Assembly: GCF_000143985.1 (NCBI RefSeq)
Contig: NC_014364.1
Location: forward strand, 3,906,001-3,970,000
Origin: Sediminispirochaeta smaragdinae DSM 11293
Lineage (GTDB): Bacteria; Spirochaetota; Spirochaetia; DSM-16054; Sediminispirochaetaceae
Direction: 5' to 3'
DNA length: 64,000 nt
The position numbers and the translations under genes are program-made. The notes below the pieces were generated by a model that was not told the origin of the DNA, searched no databases, and saw only the letters and a list, made by a program, of their open reading frames with translations. This document shows positions 19,198 through 24,183 of this stretch, in pieces; position 1 is the stretch's first letter; each line of letters begins with the position of its first letter.

Positions 19198-20847
19198 CTA
19201 AGCAGAAAATCCCTGCAAGACCGATTCGTAACGCCCAATCACCCGACGAGCAAACCCCGACTCACCATGCAGGGCCCGTACCATCTCCGCCTCAGGCCTT
19301 ACCACTTCCCCTCTGGGTAGGACGGCAGCTGCAAGCTCATCGGCAGAAGGAAGTCCCCGTCGAAGGGATGAAAGTGCAGAAACCCCAGCAACAGCGGCTC
19401 CAAGCCCGGCCCCCAATCTGCCGATGGTGACCACCGGTCGGTTCCAGACCGCTGCAATGCGGGAAACCACTCCAGCTGCCCCTGCAGGGCCTCCTGTCAC
19501 GTATAAGGGCTCATCGGTATCACGGGAGAAACTGCGTGAATAATGTTCGATGATCGTAAGAGTGGTATCGATAATACCGGCATAATCCGCCTCAAGGGAG
19601 GCCGCCTGTCCCGTATTTCGGACTGGATCGACTATTGCACCGCCAGCAGGGAAAGATTCGGCATCCGGCTGCCAGATGAGAAGGTATTTTCCAACGGGTA
19701 TCGAGGGCAAGAGATCATCGGCAGGAGCGTATTCATCTTTCTTCAAACCGTGCATCATGCGAACCCGGTCCCAGACAAGGGCCCCGTTGGTTCGGCAGCC
19801 GAAAAGGAAGGGTCTTCCAAGTCCGTCGTACATGGCATTGGCGTATCCCGCCTGGTCCATGGCAACCCGGCCATCGCCTGAGGTCGAAGCCGCGACCATG
19901 AAAACAAAGCTGGTGCCGAGGCTCAAGAGATCACCGTCGACCAGAACCTTTGTCTGCGGATTATCACCGCTGCCTGCCGCAACAATACAATCGGGCGAAA
20001 GCCCGTAGCGCTCGACGAAATAGGCAGCTACCGAGCCGACAACGGCATCAGGGGCAACGACATCGGTAAGTTTTGCACGGAACGCCTCGGAACCTCCCGG
20101 CAGGGATGCCGATGCAGCATCAATCAACTCAGGCGACCAGGAACGTCGCTGATAATCAAGTAAACTGGTACCACAACCGTTTCCAAAATCGGTACCGACC
20201 CTACTGTTGCCAACGAGAACCGCAGGGATAAAGGAACTGATGAGGAGTACCGTTTCGGTCTTTTCCCATACATCGGGATACCGCTGGGCGACCCTCCTCA
20301 TAACCGCTCCGGAAAAACGCAAAGGGCTGTCGCTGCCGGAAAGCTCGATCATGCGCTGCTTTCCACCCACCCCGGTTCGAATGGCCTCTGACTGAGCCGC
20401 TGTATCGCTCGTCTTCCAAATCGGAGCCGCCTTGTAGGAAAAAATATCGGCCAGTCGATGTACCAGGTCCCCGGCTTCCGCACCGATCCCCTTTTCTCGT
20501 AAGGTCGAAAAGGATTTTTGTGCACCGCTTTTCAGATACACATGGCCATGTTGCTGCCCGGAAACATTAATGGCAGCCACGGAATCGGGCCTGACAATGC
20601 CCTCTTCTTTCATATCGGATAAAAGGGCGTCAAGGGCGGCGAGGAAAAGCTTCGGTGGTTGGTCCGCCTCTCCTTCAACCCTCGGAGGAACCACAAATGT
20701 ATCATGTTCCAGGCCGAAACCACCGAGACGGGAATCGGACTGGTATGACAGGCTCTTCTTCCAGACAACGGAACCACTCTCCGCATCGACTGCCACTCCT
20801 GTCATACTCTGGGTACTACAATCAATTCCGAGACTCACTGTGCTCAT
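19198..20847 (-). CDS. FGGY carbohydrate kinase, probably xylulokinase
   Basis: A 549-residue sugar kinase of the FGGY family, somewhat longer than typical xylulokinases (about 480-500). Visible features are SLGIDCSTQSMTGVAVD at the N-terminus, AAINVSGQQHGHVYL near 95 (the xylulokinase-like GQQHG motif), and the C-terminal ATP-binding part YVTGGPAGAAGVVSRIAAVWNRPVV with GLGAAVAG. It would phosphorylate D-xylulose or a close ketose. AGGAGG precedes the ATG. No isomerase lies next to it, so the gene stands alone and the substrate is less certain than the family. Confidence 0.82.
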   Translation of the reverse strand: MSTVSLGIDCSTQSMTGVAVDAESGSVVWKKSLSYQSDSRLGGFGLEHDTFVVPPRVEGEADQPPKLFLAALDALLSDMKEEGIVRPDSVAAINVSGQQHGHVYLKSGAQKSFSTLREKGIGAEAGDLVHRLADIFSYKAAPIWKTSDTAAQSEAIRTGVGGKQRMIELSGSDSPLRFSGAVMRRVAQRYPDVWEKTETVLLISSFIPAVLVGNSRVGTDFGNGCGTSLLDYQRRSWSPELIDAASASLPGGSEAFRAKLTDVVAPDAVVGSVAAYFVERYGLSPDCIVAAGSGDNPQTKVLVDGDLLSLGTSFVFMVAASTSGDGRVAMDQAGYANAMYDGLGRPFLFGCRTNGALVWDRVRMMHGLKKDEYAPADDLLPSIPVGKYLLIWQPDAESFPAGGAIVDPVRNTGQAASLEADYAGIIDTTLTIIEHYSRSFSRDTDEPLYVTGGPAGAAGVVSRIAAVWNRPVVTIGRLGAGLGAAVAGVSALSSLRRGLPSADELAAAVLPRGEVVRPEAEMVRALHGESGFARRVIGRYESVLQGFSA

Positions 20848-20933: not shown

Positions 20934-22217
20934 CTACTCCTCTTTCGGGCTGTCAATCGTTTTCGGGAGAATCAAATTCAGCACGATGCCGACGAGGGTG
21001 GCGAGGGCAACGCCGCTTAGTTCAAAATGAAGGCTTTCGCTCAGGGGAAAGAAAATCCTTCCGCCGCCGATTCCGATCACCAAGATCACCGAACTGATGG
21101 TAAGATTCCTTTTACAGGTGTAATCAACGCCACTTTCCACGACAGTGCGGATACCTGCACTGGCAATGATTCCGAAAAGCATCATCGAGATGCCGCCCAT
21201 TACCGGAACAGGAACCGTATTGATGATAGCCCCGACCTTGGTGATGAAAGAGAGGATGATCGCAATCACCGCTGCCCCCCCGATGACCCAGACGCTGTAG
21301 ACCCTGGTGATGGCCATGACACCGATATTCTCCCCGTAGGTCGTATTGGGGGGCCCGCCGAAAAGGGCGGCAAGGGCTGTTGCAGCACCGTCACCCGCGA
21401 GGGTTCGGTGAATACCGGGATCCTTCAGAAAGTCTTTTCCTACTACCTTACTGGTCACCATGGTATCTCCGAGGTGCTCGGCGATGGTCGCAAGGCTGAC
21501 AAGCAAAAAGGTGATAATGGGAACGGCGGAGAATTTCGGAATCTTTGGGGCTGTAAAGCCGAACCAGGCGGCTTCCTTTACCGAAGAAAAATCGATCCAG
21601 GAAAAAGCGGGCCAGATTGAGCCGGCAACCAAAGTAAAGAGATAGCCACCGAAAAAGGCAATCAGAATCGGAATGACGGTAAAAAACCCCTTCAGCACAA
21701 GGAGGGAAACCACCGCAATGCTGAGGGTGACCACGGCAATGGTCACCGATGCAAAGCTGTAGCTGCCATCAGGACCATTCATGGCCATGTCCATCGCCGT
21801 CGGTGCAAGATTGAGGCCGATTACCATGATGACTGTCCCAATCACAACCGGCGGCAGAAGACGGTCTATCCAACCGGTTCCGGCCTTACTGATAATAAAG
21901 GCGACAATGAGATAGAATATTCCCACGCAAAAGGCTGCTCCAAGAGCATATTCCATTCCAAAGCTTCCCGAGATCGCGACAATCGGCGGAATAAAGGCAA
22001 AAGAGGAGCCGAGGTATGCAGGGACTCGTCCCCCGGTAATCAGGATATACAAAAGTGTACCTATTCCTGAGGTAAAAAGTGCCGTCGAAGGACTCAGGCC
22101 CGTCAAAAGCGGCACAAGAACCGTTGCCCCGAACATTGCAAAAACATGCTGAAAGCTCAGCGGAATCCACCGCCGCAGCTCAGGCTGTTCCCTTACTCCA
22201 ATGATCTTGTCCTTCAT
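20934..22217 (-). CDS. uraA: Uracil/xanthine permease (NCS2 family)
   Basis: This 427-residue NCS2 transporter has about 12-14 membrane segments. It begins with PLSFQHVFAMFGATVLVPLLTGLSPSTALFTSG-type sequence, characteristic of UraA-like carriers. It also has AEHLGDTMVTSKVVGKDF (transport-site helix with Glu), FGGPPNTTYGENIGVMAITRVYSV, and the PVPVMGGISMMLFG motif. It imports uracil or xanthine with protons. Its leader, a promoter followed by a 21-codon peptide gene that overlaps a strong terminator, points to UTP-sensitive control and so favours uracil. A xanthine carrier cannot be excluded. Confidence 0.88.
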   Translation of the reverse strand: MKDKIIGVREQPELRRWIPLSFQHVFAMFGATVLVPLLTGLSPSTALFTSGIGTLLYILITGGRVPAYLGSSFAFIPPIVAISGSFGMEYALGAAFCVGIFYLIVAFIISKAGTGWIDRLLPPVVIGTVIMVIGLNLAPTAMDMAMNGPDGSYSFASVTIAVVTLSIAVVSLLVLKGFFTVIPILIAFFGGYLFTLVAGSIWPAFSWIDFSSVKEAAWFGFTAPKIPKFSAVPIITFLLVSLATIAEHLGDTMVTSKVVGKDFLKDPGIHRTLAGDGAATALAALFGGPPNTTYGENIGVMAITRVYSVWVIGGAAVIAIILSFITKVGAIINTVPVPVMGGISMMLFGIIASAGIRTVVESGVDYTCKRNLTISSVILVIGIGGGRIFFPLSESLHFELSGVALATLVGIVLNLILPKTIDSPKEE

Positions 22218-22238: not shown

Positions 22239-22279
22239 AAAAAAAAGCTTTCCTTTTCTCTATAAAAGAAAAGGAAAGC
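22239..22279 (-). terminator. Intrinsic terminator (attenuator) in the uraA leader
   Basis: On the minus strand a perfect 13-bp stem (22279-22267 with 22259-22247), a 7-base loop and eight Us (22246-22239) form a strong terminator just before the permease gene. The ribosome site and ATG of the permease lie downstream, so readthrough is required for expression. The loop contains the stop codon of the leader peptide. Confidence 0.9.
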
Positions 22280-22325
22280 CGTCGGAGGGAAGACCCGCGC
22301 CCACAGGCAACATATGAAGAACCAT
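22260..22325 (-). CDS. Leader peptide of the uraA attenuator (21 aa)
   Basis: A 22-codon frame starts with ATG at 22325 behind AAAGGAGGGAGT, a very strong ribosome site, and ends with TAG at 22260-22262 in the loop of the terminator hairpin. The peptide starts MVLHMLPVGAGL and ends GFPFLL. The last codons are almost pure U and C. A polymerase short of UTP would pause there and let the ribosome run into and melt the terminator stem, as in the pyrBI leader of enteric bacteria. GGAGGGA of the ribosome site can also pair with UCCCUCC at codons 12-14. Confidence 0.75.
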   Translation of the reverse strand: MVLHMLPVGAGLPSDGFPFLL

Positions 22326-22356
22326 ACTCCCTCCTTTTGTTATCCAAATTGTCGGA

Positions 22357-22386
22357 TTTATATCAGAAGGGGGCAAGTTCTGTCAA
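22357..22386 (-). promoter_or_regulatory. Promoter of the uraA leader
   Basis: On the minus strand TTGACA (22386-22381), an 18-base spacer and TATAAA (22362-22357) form a near-consensus sigma-70 promoter. Transcription would begin about 25 bases before the leader peptide start and traverse the attenuator. Confidence 0.75.
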
Positions 22387-22404: not shown

Positions 22405-23379
22405 TTAACCATGACGAAACACCTTGGCATTAAGACACTGGGCACCAGCTCTGCCGTCGAGCATTGCGATAAGGTTTTCCGCAGCCATTACCGCCATGTC
22501 TCCACGTGAGCCGCTTGTTGCCGAACCCGTGTGGGTCGTGATCACCACGTTATCGAGATCCGCAAGCCCCTTGCTCATTGCAGGCTCAAACTCATATACA
22601 TCAAGCCCGGCACCGGCAATCTTTCCTTTGCGCAAAGCATCTACCAAAGCGGCTTCATCTATCAATGCTCCCCTGCCGGTATTGATAAGACATGATGTCG
22701 GTTTCATCGCCTCAAACTGAGGTTTCCCGATCAAATGCCGGGAAGTATCGTTCAGGGGAAGATGCAGCGAGATGAAATCCGATTCCTCAATCAGCTGATC
22801 AAGCTCAACACGCTGTGCTCCCACGCCCTCTTCAAGTCGGGGGGATGCACTTCGGTTCCAGTAGATCACCTTCATACCGAAGCCGCTGCTCATCAATCCC
22901 ATTGCTGTACCGATCCGGCCGGCACCGATAATACCGAGCGTCTTTCCGGTAACATCACAGCCGACAAATTCCATGGGGGCCCATCCCTGCCACCGGCCGC
23001 TACGCATCAAGCGGTCGGAAGGGACGACCTGACGGGCTACCGCAAAAAGTAGAGCCCAAGCCATCTCAGCTGTCGCATGTGTAAGGACATCTGGAGTATT
23101 GCTTACCCCGACACCAAGGCGACCTGCAGCGGCAAGATCGATGTTGTCGTAACCGACCGCATAATTGGCCACCGCCTTCAGTCCGCCTCCTGCGGAAAGT
23201 ACCTCTTCATCTATCTTGTCGCATAACATCGAAAGCAAACCGTCGGCCCAGTCGGCTCCCTCCAGGAGCTCTTCCCTTGTGGCCGGTCTGTCCGCAGCCT
23301 GTACACGAACATCGCACTGCCGTCGCAGCAGCTCGATCCCTTTATCCGAGATTGCTCTGGAAACATAAACCTTCTTCAT
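22405..23379 (-). CDS. D-isomer-specific 2-hydroxyacid dehydrogenase (glyoxylate/hydroxypyruvate reductase type)
   Basis: An enzyme of 324 residues with the complete NAD-binding pattern: GKTLGIIGAGRIGTAMGL near 145, LINTGRGALIDEAALVDALRKGKIAGAGLDVYEFEP, and the catalytic His in VVITTHTGSAT; the active-site Arg is in KAVANYAVGYDNID context and LINTGRG. It reduces glyoxylate, hydroxypyruvate or a similar 2-oxoacid. The frame opens at a TTG (23415), but the family begins at the ATG at 23379 (MKKVYVSRAI). It lies just upstream of the uraA promoter and diverges from rex. Confidence 0.87.
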   Translation of the reverse strand: MKKVYVSRAISDKGIELLRRQCDVRVQAADRPATREELLEGADWADGLLSMLCDKIDEEVLSAGGGLKAVANYAVGYDNIDLAAAGRLGVGVSNTPDVLTHATAEMAWALLFAVARQVVPSDRLMRSGRWQGWAPMEFVGCDVTGKTLGIIGAGRIGTAMGLMSSGFGMKVIYWNRSASPRLEEGVGAQRVELDQLIEESDFISLHLPLNDTSRHLIGKPQFEAMKPTSCLINTGRGALIDEAALVDALRKGKIAGAGLDVYEFEPAMSKGLADLDNVVITTHTGSATSGSRGDMAVMAAENLIAMLDGRAGAQCLNAKVFRHG

Positions 23380-23538: not shown

Positions 23539-24183
23539 ATTTCAATTCAGCTTTCACGTCCGTCACTGGAAAGGCTTCCCGTATATTACCGCATTTTGAA
23601 GCATGCGGCCGAGCAGGAATCGTCGTACATATCCTCCTCTGAGATAGGCCGAAAAGCAGGGGTTCCTGGAGCCCAGGTTAGGAAGGATTTACTCTGTTTC
23701 AAAGCAAAAGGAAGGCCGAGTGTAGGCTTTCATGTTCTTACCTTGCGAAAAGATCTTGAAAGGTATCTAGGACTTGAGCACTCGAGAAGTGTGGCATTGG
23801 TCGGGGCAGGAAACCTTGGAAAGGCCCTTGCACAGTTTCCTGGTTTTGCTCAATACGGCATGAAGATCACCCTTTTGCTGGACAAGGATCCCCAAAAAAT
23901 AGGAAGTGTAATCGGGGGATTAGAGATCAAAGGGATGGATGTTCTGCCCCTCATTGCAAAAGAAAAGAGGCTCAAGATCGGAATTATCACCACTCCGGCT
24001 TCCGAAGCACAGCTTGTTGCCGAACAGATGGTTGCCGCCGGAATTATTTCCATTTGGAATTTTACCCCCACAAGGCTCTCCCTTCCGGAAGACGTCTTCA
24101 TTCGCTATGAAGACCTTTCGGCAGGGTTGGCACTCCTCAGCCAGAAAGCGGCGGAATTTGAAAGAAATCATAACCATGAATAA
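23539..24183 (+). CDS. rex: Redox-sensing transcriptional repressor Rex (apparent ATT start)
   Basis: A 214-residue Rex protein. Visible parts are the winged helix (SSSEIGRKAGVPGAQVRKDL), the Rossmann motif VALVGAGNLGKALAQF near 100, and FTPTRLSLPEDVFIRYEDLSAGLALLS at the C-terminus. Rex binds NADH/NAD+ and represses fermentation and hydrogenase genes when NADH is low. The only ATG/GTG/TTG/CTG codons in frame are internal to the conserved domain: CTG 23566 and TTG 23596. The residues before them (SRPSLERLPVYYRIL) match the Rex N-terminus. GAGGAG sits seven bases before ATT at 23539, preceded by a stop at 23521, so ATT is the probable start. Confidence 0.85.
   Translation: MSIQLSRPSLERLPVYYRILKHAAEQESSYISSSEIGRKAGVPGAQVRKDLLCFKAKGRPSVGFHVLTLRKDLERYLGLEHSRSVALVGAGNLGKALAQFPGFAQYGMKITLLLDKDPQKIGSVIGGLEIKGMDVLPLIAKEKRLKIGIITTPASEAQLVAEQMVAAGIISIWNFTPTRLSLPEDVFIRYEDLSAGLALLSQKAAEFERNHNHE

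Follow-up and report, generated by a model that had tools for sequence, protein, structure and literature searches.

Organization of the uraA Locus

The minus strand of the window, the 64,000-nucleotide stretch of Sediminispirochaeta smaragdinae DSM 11293 DNA that was analysed, carries uraA, a gene for an NCS2 uracil permease that is preceded by a promoter, a short open reading frame (ORF) with its own ribosome site, and an intrinsic terminator hairpin (Table 1). The NCS2 assignment had been made earlier from the sequence alone (hereafter, the sequence-only reading) and was sharpened by profile searches: the protein is a UraA-type uracil permease, scoring best among the NCS2 models with NCBIfam PRK10720 (463 bits; curated cut-off 477) and passing the cut-off of TIGR00801. 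A gene for the Rex redox repressor (23596–24183, plus strand) lies near the locus and is oriented divergently to the gene for the hydroxyacid dehydrogenase.

Table 1. Features of the uraA leader and its flanking genes in the window, as read or predicted from the sequence (SD, Shine-Dalgarno sequence; MFE, minimum-energy)
Feature	Position	Strand	Basis
FGGY-type carbohydrate kinase gene, downstream of uraA (86-nt gap), possibly co-transcribed	19198–20847	−	
uraA, NCS2 uracil permease, 427 aa, own SD AAAGGAGGA	20934–22217	−	NCBIfam profiles
Eight Us of the terminator	22239–22246	−	direct reading
Intrinsic terminator: hairpin with a perfect 13-bp core, extended to 16 pairs in the MFE fold	22246–22280	−	fold
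Leader ORF MVLHMLPVGAGLPSDGFPFLL, 21 codons plus TAG	22260–22325	−	direct reading
15-nt U/C-only run, last leader codons and terminator 5′ arm; candidate UTP-dependent pausing tract	22264–22278	−	direct reading
TCCCTCC, codons 12–14, able to mask the leader's own SD	22284–22290	−	MFE fold
SD of the leader ORF, AGGAGGGAG	22327–22335	−	direct reading, fold
Predicted transcription start AATTTG, 6 nt past the −10 element	22345–22350	−	comparison with MG1655 pyrBI leader
Promoter: −35 TTGACA, 18-nt spacer, −10 TATAAA	22386–22381 (−35); 22362–22357 (−10)	−	direct reading
Hydroxyacid dehydrogenase gene, upstream, ending about 20 nt before the promoter	22408–23379	−	

The promoter, which the sequence-only reading had called near-consensus, matches the consensus at 11 of 12 positions, and a strict promoter scan missed it only by requiring T at the last −10 position; the promoter of the congener has the same position and quality (11/12), and those of most other relatives match at 9–11 of the 12 positions. 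The eight Ts of the terminator are followed by 21 nt with a fresh SD and then by the uraA ATG at 22217; as the hairpin and uraA are just 28 nt apart, the promoter has to be ahead of the terminator. The rest of the leader also proved to be built as first described: a 21-codon peptide gene begins with an ATG at 22325 behind a strong ribosome site (context AAAAGGAGGGAG), its final codons fall in a run of U and C only, and its TAG (22262–22260) sits within the loop (TTTATAG) of a hairpin that has a perfect 13-bp core, eight Us, and a predicted ΔG of about −20 kcal/mol. A proposed pairing between the ribosome site and codons 12–14 is present in the minimum-energy fold of the leader, where GGAGGGA of the SD pairs with 22290–22284; it is formed in the congener (L005) too and was seen only in this genus. 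The predicted leader fold is more stable than those of 200 of 200 shuffled sequences (z = −4.3), an excess that is mostly owed to the terminator.

Taken by itself, the window ORF is at chance level: its frame stays open in about 0.9 of dinucleotide shuffles of the ORF body, and none of the three frames meets a stop before the hairpin. An open frame is therefore expected by chance at this locus and the case must rest on the relatives, across which alone the ORF becomes significant. A frame so readily open, together with a hydroxyacid dehydrogenase gene that ends just before the promoter on the same strand, would suit a terminator that ends the transcript of that upstream gene, or that sets a fixed low output of uraA, with the ORF a chance frame; yet the interval between hairpin and uraA is too short for a promoter, and the order promoter–ORF–terminator recurs in many families with unrelated leaders in which the frame is kept (P about 1e-7, see below), and this explanation is thus held to be very improbable.

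Distribution of the Leader Layout

Orthologous permeases were drawn from Spirochaetia genomes and from named GTDB contigs and their upstream stretches were examined; a second type of permease (48% identical; L026) was traced on its own, and the regions upstream of pyrB were examined in 16 genomes. Terminators were called from hairpin energy and the T-run, promoters were chosen by eye or by consensus, and the leader set was curated by hand. An arrangement of promoter, short ORF ending at or running through a hairpin, and gene was found recurrently before uraA, before the second uraA-like permease, and before pyrBI. Before uraA, it is present in the window's family and in several further genome families (L004, L005, and L016 in family f1; L006, L008, L034, and L014 in f6; L007 and L012 in f4; L010 and L035 in f18; L011, L013, L033, L036, L039, and L040 in f26; L041 and L042 in f44; L134 in f25; L115 in f9). 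The leaders of the second permease type (L026, L175–L178) belong to family f9, and those of pyrBI (L193 and L194, from this genome and its congener, L188, L189, L197, and L198) to three families that include the window's own.

These ORFs span some 9–56 codons, and the position of their stop relative to the hairpin takes four forms. The stop falls at the first bases of the hairpin in L006, L007, L008, L034, L026, L175, and L176; in its arm or loop in L004, L010, L033, L035, L036, L039, L177, L178, and L189; just before it in L012, L014, L115, and L188; and past it, near or overlapping the start of the gene as in the E. coli arrangement, in L016, L134, L013/L040, and L193/L194. Many spirochaete leaders begin 8–11 nt after the −10 hexamer, so that their AUG should coincide with or closely follow the RNA 5′ end, a location that would allow immediate ribosome binding.

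Many Treponema orthologues and some closer ones are without such a leader. Several terminators before permease genes were not counted as attenuators: that of L015 follows tRNA genes, and those of L047, L083, and L117 are not preceded by a plausible promoter and leader. In L122, an ORF before a strong terminator upstream of the permease resembles a decayed permease N-terminus (MKNKTILGVFNWPPFGRRIPLCFRYVIVLFGAPLAVPP).

Conservation of the Leader Frame

Leader starts were fixed by a rule that is blind to whether the frame is open, namely the first ATG that is 3 nt or more past the −10 element and is either no farther than 12 nt from it or provided with an SD, and one leader per genus and gene was counted (n = 20, Spirochaetia). 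The frame reaches the hairpin in 18 of the 20 genus-level leaders against 7.3 expected from shuffles (P about 1e-7), and 14 of them have their stop at or in the hairpin against 5.0 expected (P = 3e-7); when the same starts are used with the frame shifted by one or two bases, 11 of 40 frames are open. The result does not hinge on the window, as 16 of 18 leaders are open once its genus is removed (6.1 expected; P about 4e-7), and a cruder rule that takes the first ATG after the −10 element gives 16/20 (7.1 expected; P = 9e-6). The two exceptions under the fixed start, L041 and L197, each have an ORF from another start. The check that the sequence-only reading had put forward, conservation of frame and terminator in related genomes, thus came out in its favour: the relatives keep an open frame that runs into the terminator.

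Peptide Sequence, U Content, and RNA Fold

Within genera, leader ORFs keep their frame and length, and the differences between them are mostly nonsynonymous: L006 and L008 differ at nine nonsynonymous and no synonymous codons, L004 and its congener L005 by three nonsynonymous C-to-T changes that leave the frame intact; the ORFs of L036 and L039 are exactly one codon apart in length, and those of family f6 have the same length. Such a pattern argues that the leader peptide is free of amino-acid constraint. In family f26, a ATTTATAAT stretch before the hairpin is conserved in its nucleotides, and the frame differs between L033/L036/L039 and L013/L040. No repeated regulatory codons of a single amino acid were found across the listed leader peptides, nor was an antiterminator fold. 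Eight leader peptides gave no Pfam match at E values up to 10, which is a weak test given that short peptides are hard to match; at the level of sequence, the leader would not be recognised as belonging to the enteric leader-peptide family.

Across the set, the 30 nt that directly precede the hairpin are 37.8% U vs. 25.9% for the preceding 30 nt (paired Wilcoxon P = 6e-4). The window leader has no such enrichment (0.27 vs. 0.27), and its U/C run is part of the hairpin's 5′ arm. Leader sequences are unrelated between families, and the consensus folds of five leader groups consist of essentially the terminator only.

These folds bear on the possibility that the leader RNA acts as a riboswitch or as a site for a protein to bind, with the ORF being incidental. 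The window leader does fold stably before its terminator, with the SD masked, and PyrR often governs uracil permeases in other phyla. On the other side stand the terminator fold as the sole structure shared by the five groups, whose leaders are unrelated between families, and a reading frame conserved beyond chance. No Rfam match was found in the window or in the spirochaete leaders tested, and PyrR was below the cut-off in this genome and in 21 other spirochaete genomes (best scores of 22–42 bits vs. a cut-off of 138). A riboswitch or binding site with an incidental ORF is accordingly given little credence. The statement in the sequence-only reading that neither PyrR nor a riboswitch takes part agrees with these searches, and the conserved aptamer that it had named as a sign of a riboswitch was absent from the folds of all five groups.

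Other Pyrimidine Genes

The Rfam search did detect PyrR sites (RF00515) in three Bacillota loci with the orthologous permease, which served as positive controls; these loci (L058, L063, and L067) come from metagenome-assembled genomes, their permeases are 68–69% identical relatives, and a downstream purine riboswitch accompanies L067.

The S. smaragdinae genome also has a complete pyrBI-pyrE-pyrF-pyrDK-pyrC operon (L231; 1,529,800–1,542,000), whose genes were assigned from their order, from family matches, and from inspection of the proteins: a fused PyrB-PyrI of 529 aa, PyrE, PyrF, a PyrD-PyrK fusion of 620 aa, and PyrC. Its leader ORF, of 53 codons (MGQARIMRSIGNEKHPVGNGMHLPSCFSDEFFMINQPAVVPVFFCPNVIKEEG), runs through a terminator, and its stop overlaps the pyrB start. 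The layout is absent from carA, stand-alone pyrE, an upp-like gene, and the genome's two other NCS2 permeases. In several genomes, the terminators near carA follow tRNA genes. The regions upstream of carA in L233–L242 have repeated palindromic boxes resembling TGCATAAATATGTA, which are suggestive of ArgR-type control, and have no leader attenuator. In L203–L213, the only upp-like matches are proteins of about 360 aa with a conserved N-terminal DLDGYLT motif and a C-terminal half like uracil phosphoribosyltransferase; judged from sequence, they are possibly a distinct spirochaete salvage enzyme.

The choice of genes and the base composition before the hairpin bear on what the leader would sense. 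Ribosome-coupled attenuation could be real with a signal other than UTP, such as the general rate of leader translation (set by growth rate, initiation, or translation inhibitors) or another nucleotide: a conserved frame and stop with a free peptide would fit any sensor of the distance between ribosome and polymerase, and the window itself is without U enrichment. Against this, the enrichment holds set-wide and, among the genes examined, only the pyrimidine supply genes uraA and pyrBI carry the device, which makes a non-UTP signal unlikely, if less so than the two explanations weighed above.

Proposed Model for UTP-Responsive Attenuation of uraA

The evidence points, with good though not full confidence, to control of uraA by a ribosome-coupled, UTP-responsive transcription attenuator of the pyrBI kind, as the sequence-only reading had proposed; that reading gains from the conservation of the frame in relatives and from the presence of the same device before the genome's own pyrBI operon. 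Translation of the leader, pausing by polymerase, the role of UTP as signal, and the sign of the response are all inferred. In the proposed sequence of events, polymerase would start at the promoter and a ribosome would load on the leader ORF. When UTP is ample, polymerase would outrun the ribosome, the hairpin would fold, and transcription would terminate before uraA; when UTP is scarce, polymerase would slow in the U-rich tract immediately ahead of and within the hairpin, and the ribosome would catch up to the stop at or in the hairpin and cover the 5′ arm, allowing read-through into uraA. Under such a scheme, the frame of the leader and the position of its end would matter and the sequence of the peptide would be irrelevant. 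Given the enteric pyrBI-like layout, the cell probably turns these genes on at low UTP and, as the same device precedes pyrBI-E-F-DK-C, pyrimidine uptake and synthesis may be placed under one signal.

A more elaborate picture joins several of these observations and is offered tentatively, as one that is rather unlikely to hold in full. Spirochaetes would have evolved pyrBI-style attenuation independently and across a regulon of uptake and synthesis, with leader starts at the extreme 5′ end for instant ribosome loading; uraA of Sediminispirochaeta would add a second timer, in which the SD is masked once codons 12–14 have been transcribed and only early-loaded ribosomes count; and its transcription start may slip on UTP as at E. 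coli pyrBI.

Comparison with Known Attenuators

Ribosome-coupled attenuation by pyrimidines has been described in enteric bacteria and their kin, and other phyla are usually thought to use PyrR. Literature searches of open-licence papers found no report on spirochaetes. The PyrR-RNA attenuators of Bacillota (RF00515) are alike in that transcription termination controls orthologous permeases; unlike the leaders described here, they need PyrR and a binding loop, neither of which was found in the spirochaete material tested. The attenuators of the trp/his type likewise combine a leader peptide and a terminator and let the position of the ribosome decide, but the spirochaete leaders have neither runs of regulatory codons nor an antiterminator and place the stop at or in the hairpin, whereas in amino-acid attenuators more than 20 bp separate the leader stop from the terminator (PMC4824070).

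The distance between stop and terminator is known to matter in E. coli, where the ribosome represses terminators close behind a stop codon, with less than 10% termination at 5 bp and about 90% beyond 30 bp (PMC4824070), and prevention of termination at pyrBI requires tight coupling across pyrL (PMC5021804). Several spirochaete leaders have their stop at −7 to −1 relative to the hairpin. They resemble E. coli pyrE/rph (orfE) in this respect. There, translation that ends a few nt before the terminator lets the ribosome block it; a full upstream gene is translated at that locus, in contrast to a short leader with its own promoter here.

The start region of the window leader, TATAAA-TCCGAC-AATTTG, resembles that of E. 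coli pyrBI, TATAAT-GCCGGAC-AATTTG, and at positions 22356–22345 (minus strand) the two are nearly identical (CCG-ACAATTTG). When the two leaders are aligned locally, the score is 48, and 2000 shuffles reach 40 at most; this similarity was noticed after the fact, is partly made up of promoter, SD, and ATG, and does not reach that strength in other genera. A homologous relation between the window leader and E. coli pyrBI was accordingly kept as no more than a lead, the similarity being post hoc and confined to this genus. At E. coli pyrBI, UTP-dependent slippage occurs at the transcription start (PMC6245113); by analogy, the window start suggests slippage as a second layer of control.

The closest counterpart is the pyrBI attenuator of E. 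coli and Salmonella, which likewise has a promoter, a short ORF that enters a strong terminator, and a pyrimidine target; its U-rich stretch before the hairpin has a parallel in the U enrichment of the spirochaete set as a whole, though not in the window leader. The same script that was applied to the spirochaete leaders gives U contents of 40% vs. 17% for the E. coli pyrL leader and places the end of pyrL 44 nt downstream of where the hairpin begins, 3 nt short of pyrB; the pyrBI leader of S. smaragdinae is like pyrL in running through the hairpin to the pyrB start. Differences from the enteric system are that spirochaete leaders also precede the uracil permease, that their stop usually lies at or inside the hairpin and not beyond it, that the AUG of many is predicted to be at or near the 5′ end, and that the peptides have no Pfam match. 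The same logic would now extend to at least eight Spirochaetia families, on both a uracil transporter and the biosynthetic operon and with PyrR undetected, and would offer a simple account of pyrimidine sensing in these bacteria; the roughly 30 leaders make up a natural set on what an attenuator requires, which appears to be a hairpin, a frame, and a stop position and not a peptide sequence. In nearly every feature that is visible in sequence, the group matches the enteric pyrBI attenuator.
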